DNA from: a virus | DNA length: 31,394 nucleotides | Virus record (IMG/VR): IMGVR_UViG_3300017755_000047 | Coordinates: 1-31,394 of that record | Reading direction: 5' to 3' (one strand) | Shown here: one piece after another, positions 2,061 to 20,387 of the stretch | Numbering within the stretch: the first letter of the stretch is position 1 | How the letters are laid out: every line of letters begins with the position of its first letter | Notes under the pieces: generated by a model | Database searches by the model: none | What the model was told of the DNA's origin: nothing | The model's input: only the letters and a program-made list of their open reading frames with translations | Translations under genes and position numbers: made by a program

Positions 2061-3887
2061 ATGGCAACAACAATCAAATCCACATCATTAGACTTTGATG
2101 CGATTAAGAATAACCTCAAGACTTTTCTTGCTCAGAAAGAAGAGTTTCAGGATTATAACTTTGAGGCATCTGGACTGTCTAATATTCTAGATGTTCTGGC
2201 GTACAATACCCATTATAATGGTTTGACCGCCAACTTTGCCTTGAACGAATCTTTCCTTGGGACTGCACAACTGCGTAGTTCTATCATCTCCTTGGCAGAG
2301 GGAATAGGATATATTCCAGACTCAAAGACTTCCTCTCAAGCAATCATTAAGATGTCCATTAATCTTAGTGGTGTGACAGATCGTCCCAACACGGTACAAT
2401 TAAATGATGGTTTCAAGTTCAATGCGACTGTCGATGAAACGGAGTATGTGTTCCAGACCATAGAAGACCTTACTGCCACAGATAACGGTGAAGGTCTGTA
2501 TATATTTACTGACGCCTCTGGGGAAAGTAACATCAAGGTCTACGAGGGAACTCAACGAGTCAAAACCTTCCTTGTGACCCAACAAGAAGAGAACCCAGTC
2601 TATATCATACCCGATACTGAGATGGATATTTCTACTGCGGTTGTGCGTGTATATGAGTCACCATCTTCTTCTCAGTTTACTACATATACCAACCTATTGT
2701 CCGCTACGACAATCAATGCTAACTCTACTCTATTCATATTGAAAGAATCTCCTAATGGATTCTTTGAACTGACCTTTGGTAATGGTACAACATTGGGTCG
2801 TTCACCAGCCGCTGGTAGCAAGGTTACGGTCACCTATCTGGCATCAGGTGGTAGTGCTGGTGATACTGCCAAGACATTTGAACCTCAGAGTCCAATCACT
2901 GTTGCTGGTGTATCGTACAACGCATCAGTAACTACTGTCGCCAATGCTGTTGGTGGCGGTGAAAAAGAATCTATAGAATCTATTCGTCAGAATGCTCCCT
3001 TCCAGTATGCATCTCAAAACCGAATGGTAACAGCCGTAGACTATACCGCACTGGTACTACAAAACTTCTCAACACTGATCAAGGACATCACATCCTTTGG
3101 TGGTGAAGAAGCGATCAACCCAGTCTTTGGTTCCGTCTTCATATCAATACTATTCAACTCCGATGTTGATGACACTACGATACAGGTAACAAAGGACTCT
3201 ATCATTGATCTTGCCGCACAGTTATCTGTCGCATCATTTAATGTACAGTTTGATGATCCAGTCAAGACCTTTGTTGAGACCGAGTTATTTTTCCAGTTCA
3301 ATCAGAACCTCACAACTCTGTCTCGCAACACGATTCAGGACAATGTGACTCAAGCAGTGTTTGATTATTTTGATACGAATACGGGTAACTTTAATCAGTC
3401 ATTCCGACGATCAAATCTATTGACTTTGATTGATGATGTTAGTCCTGCGATTCTATCGTCCCGAGCCACAGTGCGTATGCAGAGACGGTTTACTCCGACA
3501 TTGACACTAGCACAAGATCATGTAATGAGATACGCGACAATTATTGCAATCCCTGACGATATAAACCATGTGATTACATCTACCGCTTTTACATTGCAAA
3601 ATAAAACCTGTGTGTTAAGAAATAAACTCGGAACGAATAAACTAGAGGTATTTGATCAAGATGAACGCGCAGTCATTGTAGATAATGTAGGAGACTACGA
3701 TGGGGATACCGTCAGAATCGTTGGTTTGCGTATCGACAACTTTGTTGGTTCCGATCAGTTCATTAAGGTGTCTGTAACTCCTGCCAACCAGAGTGCCCTG
3801 ACTCCTCTAAGAAATGATGTCTTGGAGTTTGATGGTAGTAGATCATTCTCTCGTATCGTAGACGTAGAGCCTGGGGTTACTAACTAA
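2061..3887 (+). CDS. 6: Baseplate wedge protein gp6
   Basis: This 608-aa protein matches the gp6/J-like wedge family that forms the continuous inner ring of the contractile-tail baseplate (T4 gp6 is 660 aa). The N-terminal region is diagnostic: DFDAIKNNLKTFLA at about residues 12-25, then a segment around residues 38-58 with GLSNILDVLAYNTHYN, and an alpha-helical stretch ending in AEGIGYIP. The middle has an Ig-like or beta-rich section (about 95-300) and a conserved segment near 315-335 (RQNAPFQYASQNRMVTAVDY) like that in gpJ/gp6 proteins. It sits directly after gp25 and its stop codon overlaps the next start as TAATG. The C-terminal 100 residues (about 500-608) form a separate beta-rich part. 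No frameshift is seen. Confidence 0.95.
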   Translation: MATTIKSTSLDFDAIKNNLKTFLAQKEEFQDYNFEASGLSNILDVLAYNTHYNGLTANFALNESFLGTAQLRSSIISLAEGIGYIPDSKTSSQAIIKMSINLSGVTDRPNTVQLNDGFKFNATVDETEYVFQTIEDLTATDNGEGLYIFTDASGESNIKVYEGTQRVKTFLVTQQEENPVYIIPDTEMDISTAVVRVYESPSSSQFTTYTNLLSATTINANSTLFILKESPNGFFELTFGNGTTLGRSPAAGSKVTVTYLASGGSAGDTAKTFEPQSPITVAGVSYNASVTTVANAVGGGEKESIESIRQNAPFQYASQNRMVTAVDYTALVLQNFSTLIKDITSFGGEEAINPVFGSVFISILFNSDVDDTTIQVTKDSIIDLAAQLSVASFNVQFDDPVKTFVETELFFQFNQNLTTLSRNTIQDNVTQAVFDYFDTNTGNFNQSFRRSNLLTLIDDVSPAILSSRATVRMQRRFTPTLTLAQDHVMRYATIIAIPDDINHVITSTAFTLQNKTCVLRNKLGTNKLEVFDQDERAVIVDNVGDYDGDTVRIVGLRIDNFVGSDQFIKVSVTPANQSALTPLRNDVLEFDGSRSFSRIVDVEPGVTN

Positions 3888-14255: not shown

Positions 14256-16193
14256 GTGACTGTTCCTGTAAAACTAAAAGACAGTGCTGCACCGTCTGAA
14301 CTTCAGACCTTTACCTCTACGGAAGAGAATTATCTTGCGTATCAGGCTGGACTGCAACTAAGTGCAAGTGCCAATAGCGGCCTTCAGCTGACTGATACAG
14401 GTACGAACTATATTATCGGCACCTTTACCGACACATCATATGATGATGCTGTTGGCACGAGCGCGGAAGCGGGTCTGGCAACTACCACAGTAACAACTAC
14501 TGTCCGACAACGTGGGTCAACTGCTACTACAAGTGGTAGTGACTATCGTGTGCCAGTAAAGAATCTGACAGAAAGTGGTCAGCAAGTTATTCGCGAGATG
14601 AATGCCTCGGATCTCAACACGTTACTTGATCGTTTGATTTCTCGTATCTTTACCTCAGACTATCCGGGCTCTTTCCAACTTGCAACGTCTGCCCCTAGTG
14701 CTGATTACCAAGAATATGTATCAAATGTAATGACTGACACCAGATCTGATGGTGCGTCATTACAGTATAACATCTACCGTAGGAATGCGATGACAGCACC
14801 TACGAAAGTACTGCCATTTGCCATCAAACGATCTAGCGGAAGAACTGGTACCTATCAAGGTCTTCAGTTGATGAGTGATGCTCAAGTAAAGTACTCTTTG
14901 GGTCAACTAGCAAAGACTCGTATTGCATCGTCACAGACTGGTGTAGGTAACTACAGAATATTCAGTTCTGCTCAAGGTAACCCAGCGGCAAATAGTTTGT
15001 CCGGTACATGGGTTTCCAAAGGAACGGCTACAGACACTCGACAAGCAATCGTCTCTGCCAACTATACTAGAGGTCGTGTATCAAACTTCAACCGAACACG
15101 TTCATCAAACTATCAACGAACTTCTACTAGAACCTCCAATAGAAACTTCTCGGCTGCTTATACAAGGATTCGATCAAGCGCATATGCCCGAATAAGAACC
15201 AGCAACTACACTGGTAACTTTATAGGCAACTTCTTAGGGGATTATCAACGAACAAGTACACGAACTAGCAACAGAGAGTATCAACGAACAAGCACACGAA
15301 CACGAGCATCCAACTACACTGGAACGGTATCTTATACAGGTGACTACTCTCGAAACTTTGCTGGTAACTTCTCAACGACTTATGTTGGAAACTATTCCCG
15401 TGCTACCAATTTTACCGGAAACTTTGTGGGAAGTGCTATTGGTGGTGGCTCTGGAGGATTTTACTCAGTAACTGCGGGTAATGAATATTATTTTGACGTT
15501 CACGAGGAGTTTGGTGATGCCGGTGAGGGAGCTGCCTTTAATTTTTACCGAACTACGATTGTGTGGAAGGGAACAACTCTTTACGCTCAGAATGCGCCTG
15601 GCAGCGCCGCCGGCTATGTTGGCGAAACGAATACATATCAAGTTATCGGTGGCGCTAGATTCGATAGAGGATCTCTGGTAAGCACAACAACAATCGATGC
15701 TTTTACGACGAGGTACCGTTATGGGATTATTGGTCTGAATCAAAACTCCAACAATGTTAGTTTCACAAGAAGTAGTGTCGGATCAACAAGTTATACACGA
15801 AACAGTATCGTAACTTCTACAAGAACCAGTAATAGAGTCTATCAACGTGTTAGTACGAGGGAGGTTAATTATTCTAGAAACTTTGCTGGTAACTTTATTG
15901 GTAATTATTCTAGAAACTTTGTAGGTGACTTTTTAGGTGATTATCAGAGGTTAAGAATTAATGATTCAACAGCGGACTTCAGTAGAAACTTCGTAGGAAA
16001 CTACTCTAGAAACTTCACAGGCAACTATACTGGTAACTATGCTAGAAACTATGCTGGCAACTTCGTAGGGGATTATGCACGTAACTTTGCGGGTAACTAT
16101 GCTCGAACCTTTACGGGTAACTATGCTGGTAGTCAGATTGGGTCTGGTAATACAAACATTGAGACTTATACTCTCTATGTAAGAACAGCATAA
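14256..16193 (+). CDS. Tetrapeptide-repeat virion protein A (645 aa) with inserted globular module
   Basis: Translation probably starts at the GTG at 14256, preceded by GGTGGAGAG five to ten bases upstream. Residues 1-268 form an N-terminal domain (TEENYLAYQAGLQL, then LLDRLISRIFTSDYPGSF and MTAPTKVLPFAIKRSSGRTG) shared with the next gene. Residues about 270-392 and 503-625 are built from four-residue units, [YF]-x-[GR]-[N/D/T], such as YTGN FIGN FLGD YQRT STRT. Between them, residues about 393-502 are an unrelated globular module with a Gly-rich entry (GGGSGGFY) and aromatic/acidic content. The C-terminus ETYTLYVRTA is also shared with the neighbour. The function is not known; an elongated tail-associated fibre with a host-interaction module is inferred from location, repeats and modular build. 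Confidence 0.8.
   Translation: MTVPVKLKDSAAPSELQTFTSTEENYLAYQAGLQLSASANSGLQLTDTGTNYIIGTFTDTSYDDAVGTSAEAGLATTTVTTTVRQRGSTATTSGSDYRVPVKNLTESGQQVIREMNASDLNTLLDRLISRIFTSDYPGSFQLATSAPSADYQEYVSNVMTDTRSDGASLQYNIYRRNAMTAPTKVLPFAIKRSSGRTGTYQGLQLMSDAQVKYSLGQLAKTRIASSQTGVGNYRIFSSAQGNPAANSLSGTWVSKGTATDTRQAIVSANYTRGRVSNFNRTRSSNYQRTSTRTSNRNFSAAYTRIRSSAYARIRTSNYTGNFIGNFLGDYQRTSTRTSNREYQRTSTRTRASNYTGTVSYTGDYSRNFAGNFSTTYVGNYSRATNFTGNFVGSAIGGGSGGFYSVTAGNEYYFDVHEEFGDAGEGAAFNFYRTTIVWKGTTLYAQNAPGSAAGYVGETNTYQVIGGARFDRGSLVSTTTIDAFTTRYRYGIIGLNQNSNNVSFTRSSVGSTSYTRNSIVTSTRTSNRVYQRVSTREVNYSRNFAGNFIGNYSRNFVGDFLGDYQRLRINDSTADFSRNFVGNYSRNFTGNYTGNYARNYAGNFVGDYARNFAGNYARTFTGNYAGSQIGSGNTNIETYTLYVRTA
15060..15431 (+). repeat. 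Tetrapeptide-coding repeat array, first block of protein A
   Basis: The 12-base units encode [YF]-x-[GR]-[ND/T] tetrads. The Arg-type (YQRT STRT SNRN) dominates early and the Gly-type (YTGN FIGN FLGD) later. DNA copies such as TATCAACGAACAAGYACACG recur at about 15244 and 15286. The register slips once near YTGTVSYTGD. The array ends where the Gly-rich insert begins. Confidence 0.85.
15759..16130 (+). repeat. Tetrapeptide-coding repeat array, second block of protein A
   Basis: The same tetrad repeat resumes after the inserted module, first as Arg/Ser/Thr-rich units (TSTRTSNRVYQRVSTR) and then as [YF]xG[ND] and YSRN/YARN units up to the C-terminal cap. Several units are nearly identical at the DNA level (AATTATTCTAGAAACTTTG occurs twice, around 15866 and 15904). 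Confidence 0.85.
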
Positions 16194-16202: not shown

Positions 16203-18497
16203 ATGGGTAGTACTACACTAAAACTTGAGGGGACAAATGGTGACCTCAAGGAGATAACAACCACAGAAGAGAACTATCTTGCTTATCAAGCGGGACTACA
16301 TCTTGCTGCTTTGGATTCTAGTGACGTTAGTAAGATTACTGCCGTCAGTACTAATAATACACTAGTTGGTCAGTTTGTCAACACCGCCTTTGATGATGGT
16401 GTTGGTACACATGGATTCTCTGGTGGTAATGTACCCGTTATACAAACAACAACCTCTTTGTATCAAAGAGAGGGTGTTGCAGACTTTGCGGGTGACTCGG
16501 ATGCATTCAGATATCCTATTGAGTTTGTTGATAACAGTGGAACCGCTGAGATACATGAGTTAGATTCCTCTGAAACGGATACTTTAGGTGACCGTCTTCT
16601 TTCTCGTATAGCAACATCTGAATACCCAGGCGTATTCAAGATTGGATCATCTGCTCCTGATGGAACATACTCTACCTATAAGGCAGGGGTCTTTGATGAT
16701 ACCGTAGAGACCGGAGCCTCAGGAACAACATATAATGTATATGTGAAATCCTCAATGTCTGCGCCGACAACAATTCGTCCAGTATCAATCAAACGAGCCA
16801 GTGGTCTGACCGGAACCTTCCAAGGTCTCCAAGAGATGACTGATGCTCAAATCCGGTATACCTTTGGGTCGCGTGTTCAGACTCGTATGATGAATGGAAA
16901 TGCTGGTATTGGCACTTACCAGTTGCGTAACAATACACAAGGTGCTCCAACTGACACGGGAACATGGGCAACACGAGGCACTGCTACAGACACTCGCCGT
17001 AATCTAGTAAACACTGATTATTCTTCTGATTATCTAAGAGACTCTACAACAAACTCCACCCAAGATTTCGCACGAAATGTTAATTATGTCGGCAACTACT
17101 CTCGAAACTTTGCGGGTAACTTCATTGGGGATTATACCGGAGATTTTACTGGTAACTTCATAGGTGACTTCACGGGAAACTATTCTAGAAGTTTCCTTGG
17201 TGACTATGTTGGGGACTACTCAAGGAACTTCATTGGTGACTATGTCGGAGACTACTCAAGGAACTTCCTTGGAAACTATGTGGGCAACTATGCCCGTGCT
17301 TACTCGGATACATATTCAAGAACACGAGTAACCACATATACGGGTGACTTCCTTGGAAACTATGTGGGCAACTATGCTCGTAACTTTTCTGCGGTGTACC
17401 AAAGAACTCGGGCCACGAGTTTTATTGGCAACTTTGTAGGTGACTATACTGGTAACTATGCTCGTGCCTTTGCTGCAAACTACCAGAGAACATCAACTCG
17501 AACAAGTATCGCAATATCAACACGAATAAGTCTGGCAAACTTTGCCCGTGCCTTTACTCGTTTACGGATTGCTATATCTAACCGACAGTATACTCGTTTA
17601 CGGATTGCTATATCCAACCGAGCTTACTTGCGGAACTTCACGGGCAACTATACCGGAAACTATACTGGCAACTTTGCTGGGGCAAGAACTTCTACACGAA
17701 TTTCTACTAGATCAAGTAGTGTCTATGGTTATATTGGTAACTTCACGGGCAACTTTGCTGGGTCAAGGATCTCGACACGAATTTCTACTCGTTTACGGAT
17801 TGCTATATCTAACCGACAGTACCTTCGTAACTTTACAGGTAACTATACCGGAAACTATTTAAGAAACTTTACTGGTAACTATACGGGCAACTACGCACGT
17901 AACTACCTTGGAAACTTCACGGGTAACTTCACGGGCAACTATATTGGTAACTTTTTAGGTGACTATACGGGTAACTATGCTCGTAACTATTCTGCGGTGT
18001 ACCAAAGAACTCGTGCGACAGATTTTGTTGGCAACTTTGTAGGGGATTACACAGGCAACTATGCTAGAAACTTTGAGGCTGATTATACTCGTAACAGCAC
18101 TGTAGACTTCATAGGGGACTTTGCGGGAGAATATGTCGGTAACTATACTAGAAACTTTGAGGCTGATTACCAAAGGACTCGTGTATCCAGTTATTCTGCG
18201 ACTTATCAACGAACCCGAACATCAGTATACTCGGCTACATATCAAAGAACACGTATAAGTACTTACACCAGAACCTCTACACGAGACTCTCTTAACAACT
18301 TTACACAAGTGTTTCAACGAGATAGTATTGTGGTTCGTTCTAGTGCTTACAGTAGAACACGTGTAAGTAATACAACTTTCACAGGTGACTTTACAGGTAA
18401 CTTTATCGGTGACTATACAGGCAACTTTATTGGTACAACGATTGACTCTGGCACCTCTACTATAACAACATATACTTTATACCAGAGAACCGCATAA
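16203..18497 (+). CDS. Tetrapeptide-repeat virion protein B (764 aa), paralogue of protein A
   Basis: The N-terminal ~270 residues match protein A in order: TTEENYLAYQAGLHL, DRLLSRIATSEYPGVFKIGS, MSAPTTIRPVSIKRASGLTG and TATDTRRNLVN. Residues about 272-743 are an almost uninterrupted tetrapeptide repeat. About forty units fit [YF]-x-G-[ND] strictly. They are interleaved with [YF]-x-R-[NTA] units and basic tracts (YQRTRTSVYSATYQRTRIST) that keep the same four-residue register. The C-terminus TTYTLYQRTA mirrors protein A. There is no inserted globular module, in contrast to A. No catalytic motif, signal peptide or membrane segment is apparent. It probably arose by tandem duplication with A and forms a rod or sheath-like fibre part; both points are inferred. 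The repeat DNA is prone to length change. Confidence 0.8.
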   Translation: MGSTTLKLEGTNGDLKEITTTEENYLAYQAGLHLAALDSSDVSKITAVSTNNTLVGQFVNTAFDDGVGTHGFSGGNVPVIQTTTSLYQREGVADFAGDSDAFRYPIEFVDNSGTAEIHELDSSETDTLGDRLLSRIATSEYPGVFKIGSSAPDGTYSTYKAGVFDDTVETGASGTTYNVYVKSSMSAPTTIRPVSIKRASGLTGTFQGLQEMTDAQIRYTFGSRVQTRMMNGNAGIGTYQLRNNTQGAPTDTGTWATRGTATDTRRNLVNTDYSSDYLRDSTTNSTQDFARNVNYVGNYSRNFAGNFIGDYTGDFTGNFIGDFTGNYSRSFLGDYVGDYSRNFIGDYVGDYSRNFLGNYVGNYARAYSDTYSRTRVTTYTGDFLGNYVGNYARNFSAVYQRTRATSFIGNFVGDYTGNYARAFAANYQRTSTRTSIAISTRISLANFARAFTRLRIAISNRQYTRLRIAISNRAYLRNFTGNYTGNYTGNFAGARTSTRISTRSSSVYGYIGNFTGNFAGSRISTRISTRLRIAISNRQYLRNFTGNYTGNYLRNFTGNYTGNYARNYLGNFTGNFTGNYIGNFLGDYTGNYARNYSAVYQRTRATDFVGNFVGDYTGNYARNFEADYTRNSTVDFIGDFAGEYVGNYTRNFEADYQRTRVSSYSATYQRTRTSVYSATYQRTRISTYTRTSTRDSLNNFTQVFQRDSIVVRSSAYSRTRVSNTTFTGDFTGNFIGDYTGNFIGTTIDSGTSTITTYTLYQRTA
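17016..18431 (+). repeat. Long tetrapeptide-coding repeat array of protein B
   Basis: About 118 consecutive 12-base units encode four-residue repeats with an aromatic in position 1, a variable residue in 2, Gly or Arg in 3, and Asn/Asp or Thr in 4. Gly-type and Arg-type blocks alternate. Register is broken only a few times (for example around the SSSVYGYIGN segment near 17715). Longer near-identical higher-order copies occur, including LGNYVGNYAR at about 17269 and 17351, and AVYQRTRAT at about 17393 and 17993. Confidence 0.9.
17556..17821 (+). repeat. 35-base exact direct repeat within protein B, with a third near copy
   Basis: The 35 bases at 17556-17590 recur exactly at 17787-17821, 231 bases (77 codons) downstream, and nearly exactly at 17592-17626. 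They encode TRLRIAISNRQY, the only region where the tetrad pattern becomes RLRI AISN. Both the spacing and unit length keep the frame, so recombination between copies would delete or add whole repeats. Confidence 0.9.
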
Positions 18498-18536
18498 CCC
18501 TGATATATATAATATTGAATGTCGATGGAGAATATA

Positions 18537-18989
18537 ATGGCAGATAGAAAATGGTTAAATAATGCATTCTGGGAGACCCCCCAGAAACTAATCTTGAATG
18601 CAATCAGTGAACATACTGAGGGTAACAAGAGTATTCGTCAAGTTCACAAGATCACCAAATTCAACGATGATGAAACAGAAAACGAAATTTTCAATGAGGT
18701 AGTTGAATTTCTTGGTGAAGACCTAATTGATGAATCAAGCAAGAAACGTCTGGAAAAGAAACAGGCCGAAGCTGAGATGGAGAAGGAGAAACAACTAGAA
18801 CAGGAACGAGCAAAGAAACTCGAAAAACTGTTTGAATATAAGTTGGAAACCTTTGAAATCTCAGAGATCAAAGAGTCAAAGAATCGTCTGCTCAAGTCCA
18901 AACTAAGGCGCTCTAAGTCTATTCCTGAAGTGAACCTATATGCCATGATGATTGTGAAGGATGCCATTGACAATGCAGAATCCAAGTAA
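18537..18989 (+). CDS. Coiled-coil conserved protein (150 aa), possibly fibre assembly factor
   Basis: Three in-frame ATGs exist (18519, 18525, 18537). The last is preferred because GGAG at 18527-18530 lies six bases before it, giving MADRKW. Residues 1-60 contain an N-terminal motif (KWLNNAFWETPQKLILNAIS). Residues 60-95 are a highly charged helix (KKRLEKKQAEAEMEKEKQLE), and the C-terminal third has YKLETFEISEIKESKNRLLK followed by SKLRRSKSIPEVNLYAMMIV. I recognise this last part as recurring in marine T4-like phages without assigned function. Its place after two repeat fibres would suit a chaperone or assembly factor (compare T4 gp38 and gp57A), but that is only a guess. It overlaps the downstream glycosyltransferase-like gene. 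Confidence 0.8.
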   Translation: MADRKWLNNAFWETPQKLILNAISEHTEGNKSIRQVHKITKFNDDETENEIFNEVVEFLGEDLIDESSKKRLEKKQAEAEMEKEKQLEQERAKKLEKLFEYKLETFEISEIKESKNRLLKSKLRRSKSIPEVNLYAMMIVKDAIDNAESK

Positions 18990-19719
18990 AGGATTTGTAA
19001 TAGTTGCATCTAATAATGTAAACTTTTATGTCTATGCAGTAAATCTCATAGAGTCCATCAGAGACTGGTATCCAGAAGCACAGATCACTCTCGTAACCGA
19101 AGAACGCTTCATCGATGATCGTGCCGATGAGGCTGATAACATCATCTTCTGTGACAATCACTATCGTGCCAAACTCTGGGGTATGTCACAATCTCCGTAT
19201 GACATTACGATGTATGTTGATGCTGATATGGATTGTGAACACGAAGACATTGCCAAGGTCTGGGATGAACTAGGTGATCATGATATGGTCTTTCATGAGT
19301 TGACACCTGAACGCGAAAAGTTCTATGCTATCCGTAAGTTCCGGTATAAGGGCCGCGACGAAAAATACACCTTGTGTGGTGGTGTCTGTCTGTATCGTAG
19401 TAGTAATCCTCTAGTCATGGAGTTTATGGCAGAGTGGTTTGAGTTATTTAATAAGCAGCAAAACAACATATGGCAACCAGAGGGATTTGATAAACGACAA
19501 TGGAACGATGATCTGAAACACTTTGATCAAACTACATTGTGGTGGTTGACCGAAAGAGTGGACAAGTACAAGGATCTCAAGATTGGAATCTTTCATGATG
19601 ATATTCGGTGGAACTACTTCACTCAATACCAATACGAGAACCTACATTCCATAGAGGGTAAGCCTCCGATCCTTAGACACTACTCTGGTTCATTACACAA
19701 GGATAGACTCCTAGTATGA
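18973..19719 (+). CDS. Glycosyltransferase-like protein, GT-A fold type (248 aa)
   Basis: The start is ambiguous: ATG at 18961 or 18973. The second (MQNPSKGFVIVAS) is preferred because it runs straight into the first beta-strand, with AAGG 12 bases upstream; it overlaps the preceding gene by 17 bases. The fold cues are those of nucleotide-sugar GT-A enzymes: an N-terminal strand GFVIVASN (7-14), a second strand QITLVTEE, and DAD/DMD in MYVDADMD at about 80-87 as the metal-binding DXD motif. CGGVCLYR follows near 135 (equivalent to the acceptor-side NAG/GGV segment of GT8-like enzymes), then FDQTTLWWL near 184 and RHYSGS near 235. The sugar and acceptor are unknown. Targets could be a virion fibre protein, given the neighbours, or host surface or DNA. 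The stop overlaps the next ATG (ATGA). Confidence 0.8.
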   Translation: MQNPSKGFVIVASNNVNFYVYAVNLIESIRDWYPEAQITLVTEERFIDDRADEADNIIFCDNHYRAKLWGMSQSPYDITMYVDADMDCEHEDIAKVWDELGDHDMVFHELTPEREKFYAIRKFRYKGRDEKYTLCGGVCLYRSSNPLVMEFMAEWFELFNKQQNNIWQPEGFDKRQWNDDLKHFDQTTLWWLTERVDKYKDLKIGIFHDDIRWNYFTQYQYENLHSIEGKPPILRHYSGSLHKDRLLV

Positions 19720-20387
19720 AAGATGTCCCGATAGTAAACAAGGATGTCCTTGCTGCACTAGACAACTTTCTTTGGTATTATGATAACAAGGATTTAGTAG
19801 CGAAGACTCTAAGACTCCACGGAGAGGCAAAGGATCGTGAACACTATGTTAGTACGAAACATCGTGATACTATTGTCAAAGAGGATGAAAAACATGAGGG
19901 GTTTCCAGAAGAGTCTCACGCCTATGCATTGAAGGCAGAAAGATTACACTTCAATGATGATCATGACAAGATCGAGGCCGCACAGTTCTATTCAAACTAC
20001 AGTAAGTTCAATCAAGAACTCTGCACCTTGTTATCAACTCGTAACAATGCACTGACGCAATTGTATCCACCCAATGGATACATCTCTTGGCACAACAACG
20101 CAAACGCATCTGCATATAACATCATCTTCTCTTGGTCTGAGACTGGTGAGGGATGTTTTAGATATATTGATGGTCATACAGGTAAGGAAGTGGTCATTCC
20201 CGATAAGAAAGGATGGCAGTGCAAGGCAGGATACTTTGGTGCCTACGGGGAACCTTGGTACAATAGAGTCTATCATGCTGCGGAAACTGACTGCTGGAGG
20301 ATCACTGTATCCTATATGTTTGACCGTAGTGATATGGGACTTGGTCTACAAGATGACATTGTAGAGGAAATAATGTCTGATTTCTAG
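19716..20387 (+). CDS. 2-oxoglutarate/Fe(II) oxygenase-like protein (223 aa)
   Basis: The C-terminal half has the double-stranded beta-helix pattern of phage 2OG-Fe(II) oxygenases: PPNGYISWHNNANASAYNI at about 118-136, ETGEGCFRY, IPDKKGWQCKAGYFG, then VYHAAETDCWRITVSYMF at 185-202. By position the iron ligands would be H126, the residue two beyond it, and H187, with R195 binding the 2-oxoglutarate carboxylate. The usual Asp of H-x-D is Asn (N128), so activity is uncertain or chemically unusual. The N-terminal 100 residues are a charged helical part. The ATG overlaps the glycosyltransferase-like stop by four bases, so the two are translationally coupled. This suggests that they act on the same target, possibly a tail fibre; prolyl, lysyl or asparaginyl hydroxylation is a hypothesis only. 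Confidence 0.75.
   Translation: MKDVPIVNKDVLAALDNFLWYYDNKDLVAKTLRLHGEAKDREHYVSTKHRDTIVKEDEKHEGFPEESHAYALKAERLHFNDDHDKIEAAQFYSNYSKFNQELCTLLSTRNNALTQLYPPNGYISWHNNANASAYNIIFSWSETGEGCFRYIDGHTGKEVVIPDKKGWQCKAGYFGAYGEPWYNRVYHAAETDCWRITVSYMFDRSDMGLGLQDDIVEEIMSDF

Follow-up and report, generated by a model that had tools for sequence, protein, structure and literature searches.

The virus record IMGVR_UViG_3300017755_000047, whose 31,394 nucleotides constitute the window analysed here, carries two genes for large repeat proteins, A and B, which sit between baseplate genes and neck genes (Table 1). Both proteins contain a long array of four-residue repeats (tetrads), and the organisation of these arrays is the subject of this report. 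B was the subject of a preliminary description; A lies directly upstream, contains the same kind of tetrad array, and had been missed. The N-terminal domains of A and B are homologous, with 44% identity, and in B the array is flanked by the last strand of this domain ('..GTATDTR') and by a conserved C-terminal strand ('..TYTLYxRTA').

Table 1. Positions in the window of repeat proteins A and B, their parts, and the genes of the downstream cassette. ORF, open reading frame; aa, amino acids.
Feature	Coordinates	Strand	Details	Basis
Repeat protein A	14256..16193	+	645 aa, GTG start, same plan as B	ORF
A out-arm	15054..15431	+	aa 267-392; aa 268-372 paired with 521-625	Covariation
A tip domain	15432..15791	+	aa 393-512, non-repeat, mid-array	Phase map
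A return arm	15792..16130	+	aa 513-625	Phase map, covariation
Repeat protein B	16203..18497	+	764 aa: base domain, out-arm, tip, return arm, C-terminal strand	ORF
B base domain	16203..16964	+	aa 1-254, beta-hairpin repeats	AlphaFold2
B out-arm	16965..17711	+	about aa 255-503, best paired stretch aa 296-445	Covariation; AlphaFold2 strand E255-278 at base
B tip	17712..17738	+	about aa 504-512 (SSSVYGYIG), array centre, tetrad phase break	Tetrad phase map
B return arm	17739..18482	+	about aa 513-760, best paired stretch aa 570-719	Covariation; AlphaFold2 strand E737-762 at end
156-aa protein	18519..18989	+	First gene of the cassette 3' of the repeat gene	
252-aa protein	18961..19719	+	DADMD stretch; putative GT-A glycosyltransferase	By eye
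223-aa protein	19716..20387	+	Putative 2-oxoglutarate/Fe(II) oxygenase; no family match	By eye

Strict [YF]xG[ND] tetrads occur 43 times between residues 272 and 743 of B, in line with the forty or so reported previously, whereas 2000 shuffles of the same residues average 1.5 and never exceed 7. The reported period of four is also borne out, with an aromatic autocorrelation of 0.74 at a lag of 4 and of at least 0.55 at all multiples of 4 up to 40. The array does not, however, keep the one unbroken register that had been described, as the tetrad phase shifts near residues 292, 505, 537 and 723 in a phase map for which a tetrad profile was fitted to 48 proteins, B being represented there by the identical L007 (relatives are referred to by L numbers). 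Tests of period, glycine lag and tetrad uphold the view of the array as a regular, aromatic-bearing, rod-like repeat distinct from the pentapeptide, collagen and gp5 types. A pentapeptide repeat was rejected because all ten of the best aromatic lags are multiples of 4 and there is no Pfam pentapeptide match, a collagen-like repeat because the glycine autocorrelation peaks at 4, then at 8 and 28, and not with a period of 3, and the gp5 VxGxxxxx octad because the repeat is a tetrad with an aromatic residue at position 1. The claim of novelty with respect to solved repeat families is likewise supported, a PDB sequence search giving no match to E≤1; PDB sequence, Pfam, PHROGs and NCBIfam searches returned nothing informative for A or B, and Pfam and PHROG gave no match for the B N-terminal domain. 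B does match phrog_30742 (tail fiber, E 6.6e-9), but the best stretch is the low-complexity array at residues 604–756.

The two halves of the array covary as mirror images. At mirror positions (i + j constant) in 18 proteins, the mutual information conditional on tetrad position is 0.247 at an offset c of -2; the median of the 121 offsets from -60 to +60 is 0.063, and the peak fades within about 8 residues. When the same arms are paired in parallel, the highest value in 121 offsets is 0.079, and a larger sample that sets arm 1 of one protein against another protein's arm 2, with positions numbered from the base, yields 0.016; these two controls strengthen the covariation. The antiparallel register in B is i + j = 1015. 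At the mirror offset, tetrad position 1 faces position 1, 3 faces 3, and 2 faces 4, as in a two-stranded antiparallel ladder. Facing residues, or rungs, were counted in 31 proteins (observed counts, with expected counts in parentheses); the proteins are related, so the cell counts are not independent. At position 1, Y.Y 1100 (693), F.R 794 (264) and F.S 274 (123) are enriched, and R.Y 152 (470), F.F 83 (219), R.R 0 (80) and R.S 0 (74) are depleted. Position 3 is enriched for G.R 1395 (856), R.S 523 (205), G.T 362 (153) and A.G 177 (95), and depleted of G.G 133 (461), R.R 99 (398), G.S 14 (221) and R.T 9 (142), while for position 2 with 4 there is enrichment of V.T 484 (253) and I.D 127 (56) and depletion of T.T 174 (398). 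The Gly-type and Arg-type blocks of the preliminary description are thus present, but besides alternating they are complementary and sit opposite one another, and their existence is explained by their facing each other across the arms.

Disfavoured rungs at positions 1 and 3 (face I) are rarer at the mirror offset than at neighbouring offsets. In A there are none among 55, compared with 10/51 and 14/54 four residues to either side; the corresponding values are 27/397, 139/387 and 142/392 for L062, and 7/101, 12/97 and 31/101 for B, the list of disfavoured rungs having been derived from a set that includes B and excludes A. Of the 38 proteins outside the 11 B-like ones from which a scoring matrix was made, 25 were scored with it; 17 of these peak at offsets of -4 to +1, with z-scores against other offsets of 8.5 for A, 7.7 for L050 and 6.9 for L062. 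With a matrix made from five distant proteins, all 17 proteins chosen peak at -3 to +1, and z-scores against tetrad-shuffled return arms range from 3.7 to 10.7 (6.4 for B and 5.1 for A). Among 12 proteins collected later, 11 peak at -2 or -3 with the 11-protein matrix, and one peaks at -6 with a negative score. The fixed-offset scan is unsuited to Phage C48C1 and to many A-type proteins.

Register shifts and inserted domains are also placed symmetrically about the array centre in the phase map. Counted in residues from the start, the shifts of L062 lie at 723, 732, 747, 778 and 786, and counted from the end at 725, 735, 749 and 781; in A they lie at 89 and 88, and in L055 all 11 are matched. 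Overall, 50 of 100 shifts are matched in mirror, compared with a null mean of 19.8 and a maximum of 33 in 2000 draws; the count covers proteins that have shifts in each arm and only those shifts that are more than 25 residues away from the centre, and near misses of 6–7 residues (e.g. L011, L014, L029, L031) were scored as unmatched. Such mirror symmetry calls for a structural cause, we infer, because an inverted DNA repeat cannot reverse amino-acid order. As far as sequence statistics go, we think it established that the halves of the array pair with each other antiparallel.

The pairing extends to much larger proteins. In L062, residues 264–1042 pair with 1111–1889 at a single constant i + j. 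The largest form is CDS0201 of Phage C48C1 (OQ984149, WJE88074.1, 3347 residues), which is annotated as 'hypothetical protein' with no function and has a base domain 38% identical to that of B. Like B it has tetrad arrays, a C-terminal TYTLYVRVA and nested antiparallel pairing, but its arms are about four times longer and there are several globular inserts on the return side. C48C1 was not in the training set, and five nested paired stretches are found with scores of 14.9 to 102.8: from the inside outward, residues 878–1238 with 1426–1786, 580–851 with 2128–2399, 507–564 with 2580–2637, 346–405 with 2825–2884, and 267–330 with 3261–3324. The globular domains lie between the paired stretches on the return side, so that the nesting resembles that of an RNA stem. 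Five more short stretches (scores 6.1 to 8.1) fall outside the nesting, a tetrad stretch at 3061–3136 is unpaired in the listed stretches, and the outer 12-residue repeats are ambiguous in register. The globular inserts of this protein (L077, 14989-25032) differ from one another, and it has a tandem duplication at about residues 2008–2156.

Structure prediction supports a base domain to which both ends of the array belong. In the AlphaFold2 model of B, the predicted local distance difference test score (pLDDT), taken in blocks of ten residues, is mostly 80–96 in the N-terminal domain, with two blocks at 67–69, and the C-terminal strand (E737–762) is confident from about residue 750 (93–94). 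Strands E235–252 and E286–311 flank the array of L086 in the same way. Both array ends are predicted with confidence to be strands of one domain, and the C-terminal strand of B appears to complete the base domain. The AlphaFold2 output is a list of strands without their pairs, so the pairing of strands in the base and at the array ends is inferred. The base contains earlier strand pairs of similar length (E156–166/E175–182 in B, E143–154/E160–171 in L086), and because of these the array seems to fill the loop of the last base hairpin; in a side-by-side view of the internal hairpin repeats of the base, the pattern is present in only 7 of 49. The predicted strand ends agree with the covariation register, as 278 + 737 gives 1015 in B, and 252 + 286 gives 538 in L086, which is the weak covariation optimum of that protein. 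This agreement lies in the low-confidence part of the models and the outer ends give 1017 (255 + 762, B) and 546 (L086), so that the AlphaFold2 register is consistent with the pairing but does not prove it. Neither the full B model nor, in PDB and BFVD, the L086 model gave a Foldseek match at E≤0.001, and VIA gave one weak row with the L086 model (T4 gp11, Z 2.3, root-mean-square deviation 4.0 over 45 residues).

The array is variable in length and composition while its ends are conserved. The first 269 residues of B as query gave 70 IMG/VR loci, and an L062-type query and a short L072-type query gave 34 and 11 loci in lists that overlap with it; a tblastn search of 50,697 phage records with the N-terminal domain found only Phage C48C1. 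The domain, 29% identical and accompanied by a tetrad array and a similar C-terminus, also occurs in L193 (5001-6215), a metagenome-assembled genome contig labelled Gammaproteobacteria that is probably a phage contig; its array is of the YTGN/YTGVY type with a centre resembling that of L086 and L087. All 43 complete relatives (32 distinct) have the N-terminal domain and L[YW]x[RK] within the last 9 residues; A-type relatives, having been chosen by such a C-terminal motif, are left out of the 43. Between these ends the array may be as short as about 50 residues (L072 type) or exceed 3000 including inserted domains (C48C1), and L086 has arms of only about 24 residues. A glycine-rich, turn-like centre, NYAGGGK.., is found in five of eight chosen proteins, two of which are near-identical; a regular-expression search for one fixed motif recovered few of the tips and was abandoned. 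Other arrays depart from the tetrad. L042, L045, L046 and L049 have the same base, with the tetrads replaced by NYAGPT hexads and NYLGEASGAV-type ten-residue units, and the mid-regions of L064_A and L068 contain a long run of approximately eight-residue TSDPTxFx-type units between short tetrad stretches, possibly another repeat shaft. L055 has register shifts of two residues each 22–26 residues along both arms, in mirrored order, which suggests regular bulges or kinks.

We consider it likely that A and B are single-chain giant antiparallel beta-hairpin fibres, the single-chain hairpin being the simplest topology for paired array halves. In such a fibre the two long arms would be an expansion of the loop of the last hairpin in a compact base that contains small beta-hairpins: the B chain would leave the base, run outward for about 230–250 residues, make a short turn at the tip and return residue for residue, and its last strand would complete the base. 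The arms would close like a zipper, face I combining tetrad positions 1 and 3 (Tyr.Tyr, Phe.Arg and Phe.Ser; Gly.Arg, Arg.Ser, Gly.Thr and Gly.Ala) and face II pairing position 2 with position 4, with a Gly-type block of one arm opposite an Arg-type block of the other, and fibre length would evolve through matched changes in both arms. Pairing would be within rather than between chains, and with the whole arm in beta conformation the B fibre would be about 80 nm long at 0.33 nm per residue; hairpins may further associate laterally, for example as trimers. It is also likely, at slightly lower confidence, that the design generalises as a complementary duplex fibre of one chain, with antiparallel strands of up to about 780 residues each, a rung-by-rung amino-acid code, matched length evolution, and binding domains at the tip or as side beads.

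Several observations weigh against this interpretation. AlphaFold2 models the arms with low confidence: pLDDT is near 30 for residues 271–742 of B, and below 50 for residues 252–287 of L086, a model with a mean of 83.7. Eight of the 25 held-out proteins miss (L033, L055, L061, L087, L090, L093, L027_A and L028_A), L033 peaking at -20 with an array end that had been set in its C-terminal tail and being counted as a miss; L085, L086, L026_A, L031_A, L033_A and L068 peak within -4 to +1 with scores near or below zero, and 13 of the 38 had too few in-phase positions to be scored. The matrix does not fit arrays with few Arg tetrads (L087, L090, L093, L055), and the contrast in disfavoured rungs of B is modest at -4 (12/97). 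A phase-only permutation test is weak: 6 of 32 proteins reach p≤0.05, and in 13 of 31 the phases agree better in parallel than in mirrored order; phase-only mirror statistics proved too weak and were replaced by residue-pair statistics. Face-I partners change together with an odds ratio of 3.6 (p=6e-7; ten homologue comparisons that share proteins), but the ratio is 4.3 at +4 and 2.3 at -4, 2.8 at -2 and 2.2 at +2, and from 8 residues out it lies between 0.6 and 1.8 except for 2.3 at -20 and 2.5 at -24. Because nearby offsets are also raised, the co-change reflects matching of neighbourhoods and not of single rungs.

Other architectures account for parts of these data. An antiparallel homodimer with a twofold axis at the array centre, or a domain-swapped oligomer in which the array pairs with that of another chain, would yield the same i + j covariation, and the AlphaFold2 runs were of single chains only. 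It is nevertheless unlikely, given that the predicted monomer places both array ends as strands of one domain with high confidence outside the array, that what lies at the array centre is either a turn-like stretch rich in glycine (NYAGGGK..) or a large insert, and that there are relatives with arms as short as those of L086. A parallel homotrimeric shaft of period 4, such as a gp5-like triple beta-helix, with the chain passing once from base to tip, would suit the location among tail genes and the fact that phage fibres are usually trimers, and by eye the gp5-type VxG[ND] resembles half a tetrad pair. It would leave unexplained the mirror covariation, a C-terminus that completes the base domain and a non-repeat domain in mid-chain, and we find it very unlikely.

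The low arm pLDDT and a composition rich in Tyr, Arg, Gly and Asn might instead indicate an intrinsically disordered, sticky Tyr/Arg-rich linker or brush with no defined pairing, but disorder would not be expected to give a mirror covariation that reaches single residues, extends over hundreds of positions and includes almost forbidden pairs, and we rate this explanation as remoter still. The strict period of four with an aromatic residue at position 1 had led to the proposal of a solenoid. A beta-solenoid with four-residue faces is, however, extremely improbable: coil length is not constant, the best aromatic lag varies by protein (4, 8, 12, 22, 24 or 28) with no common superperiod, register shifts come in mirrored pairs, and the covariation sets the first half of the array antiparallel to the second.

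A and B are probably baseplate-linked, host-binding fibres. In the scheme of the single-chain hairpin the base would most likely join the baseplate–fibre assembly, and the globular tip and side-bead domains of A and C48C1 would bind the host surface. The 120-residue tip of A was found by tblastn in only three identical copies among the loci searched. Compared with L010_A, the base of A is 80% identical and the arms are 71 and 75% identical, with only 37% identity in the tip (34/91 aligned). From these comparisons the A tip seems to diverge rapidly, which would fit a receptor-binding tip on a fibre.

The window carries T4-like tail genes encoding a gp5-like hub end, wedge subunits and a DUF4815 tail protein, together with fibre-like genes, neck genes and a small terminase; a large terminase and a sheath were also assigned, by eye. 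The best relatives of the DUF4815 tail protein are from Phage C48C1 and pelagiphages. Neighbours of A and B match wedge, DUF4815, tail-fibre and L-shaped-fibre-assembly families, a location that agrees with the tail-fibre class. Three genes follow the repeat gene (18519-20387), and this cassette is present 3' of the repeat gene in 34 of 35 loci in which the repeat gene is complete and followed by 3 kb or more of sequence; in L061 it comes after a second array gene. C48C1 has the same cassette in the same order, with identities of 50% (156-aa protein), 56% (252-aa) and 37% (223-aa). Family searches gave no above-threshold support for the names of the three proteins, and Glycos_transf_2 Pfam matches for the 252-aa protein are sub-threshold and confined to two relatives. 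The 156-aa protein may have an accessory or chaperone role, and the glycosyltransferase-like and oxygenase-like proteins could assist in folding or in fibre modification.

T4-type long tail fibres are parallel homotrimers, in which we know of no mirror pairing, and the T4 gp5 beta-helix has three interwound chains with a period of 8, each chain passing once. B differs from gp5 in its period of 4 and its returning chain. Its resemblance to the gp5 triple-stranded beta-helix (VxGxxxxx) is as a short-repeat tail rod with a G-[ND] step (cf. PMC4576200), and with gp34 and the other T4-type long tail fibre proteins it shares a likely role and genomic position (cf. PMC5537660). Structural proteins of the cyanophages S-RIM2, P-TIM68, Syn10 and S-P4 have a period-4 xTGN appearance and weak BLAST matches, but their [VL]TG[ND] runs are short (about 5–16 tetrads) and aliphatic, not aromatic, and the N-terminal domain is absent. 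With the matrix built for aromatic arrays no antiparallel pairing was found in these runs (Syn10 and S-P4 in part); in the records L081 and L083 no ORF passed the filter. A group of 63 Synechococcus-phage records was set aside after four cyanophage proteins (two in part) showed VTGN runs and, with this matrix, no antiparallel pairing. The cyanophage structural proteins L078, L079, L080 and L082 have short [VL]TG[ND] runs lacking aromatic residues. An early hairpin model of the Bordetella filamentous haemagglutinin is said to have proposed a rod formed by an out-and-back chain, later replaced by a beta-helix; the idea of a hairpin rod is alike and the repeats are different. Searches limited to open-licence PMC papers, at the level of listings and abstract openings, gave no description of such a complementary-hairpin fibre architecture, and we found no precedent there for this way of building a long fibre.

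If this interpretation is correct, these proteins would form a thin, long rod, one strand of which largely sets the sequence of the other in the manner of a nucleic-acid stem, with pairing rules that can be read from natural sequences, are testable, and may perhaps be of use in design. It would also provide a function-level reading for large 'hypothetical' proteins of uncultured marine T4-like phages, whose fast-changing tip domains would be candidate determinants of host range.

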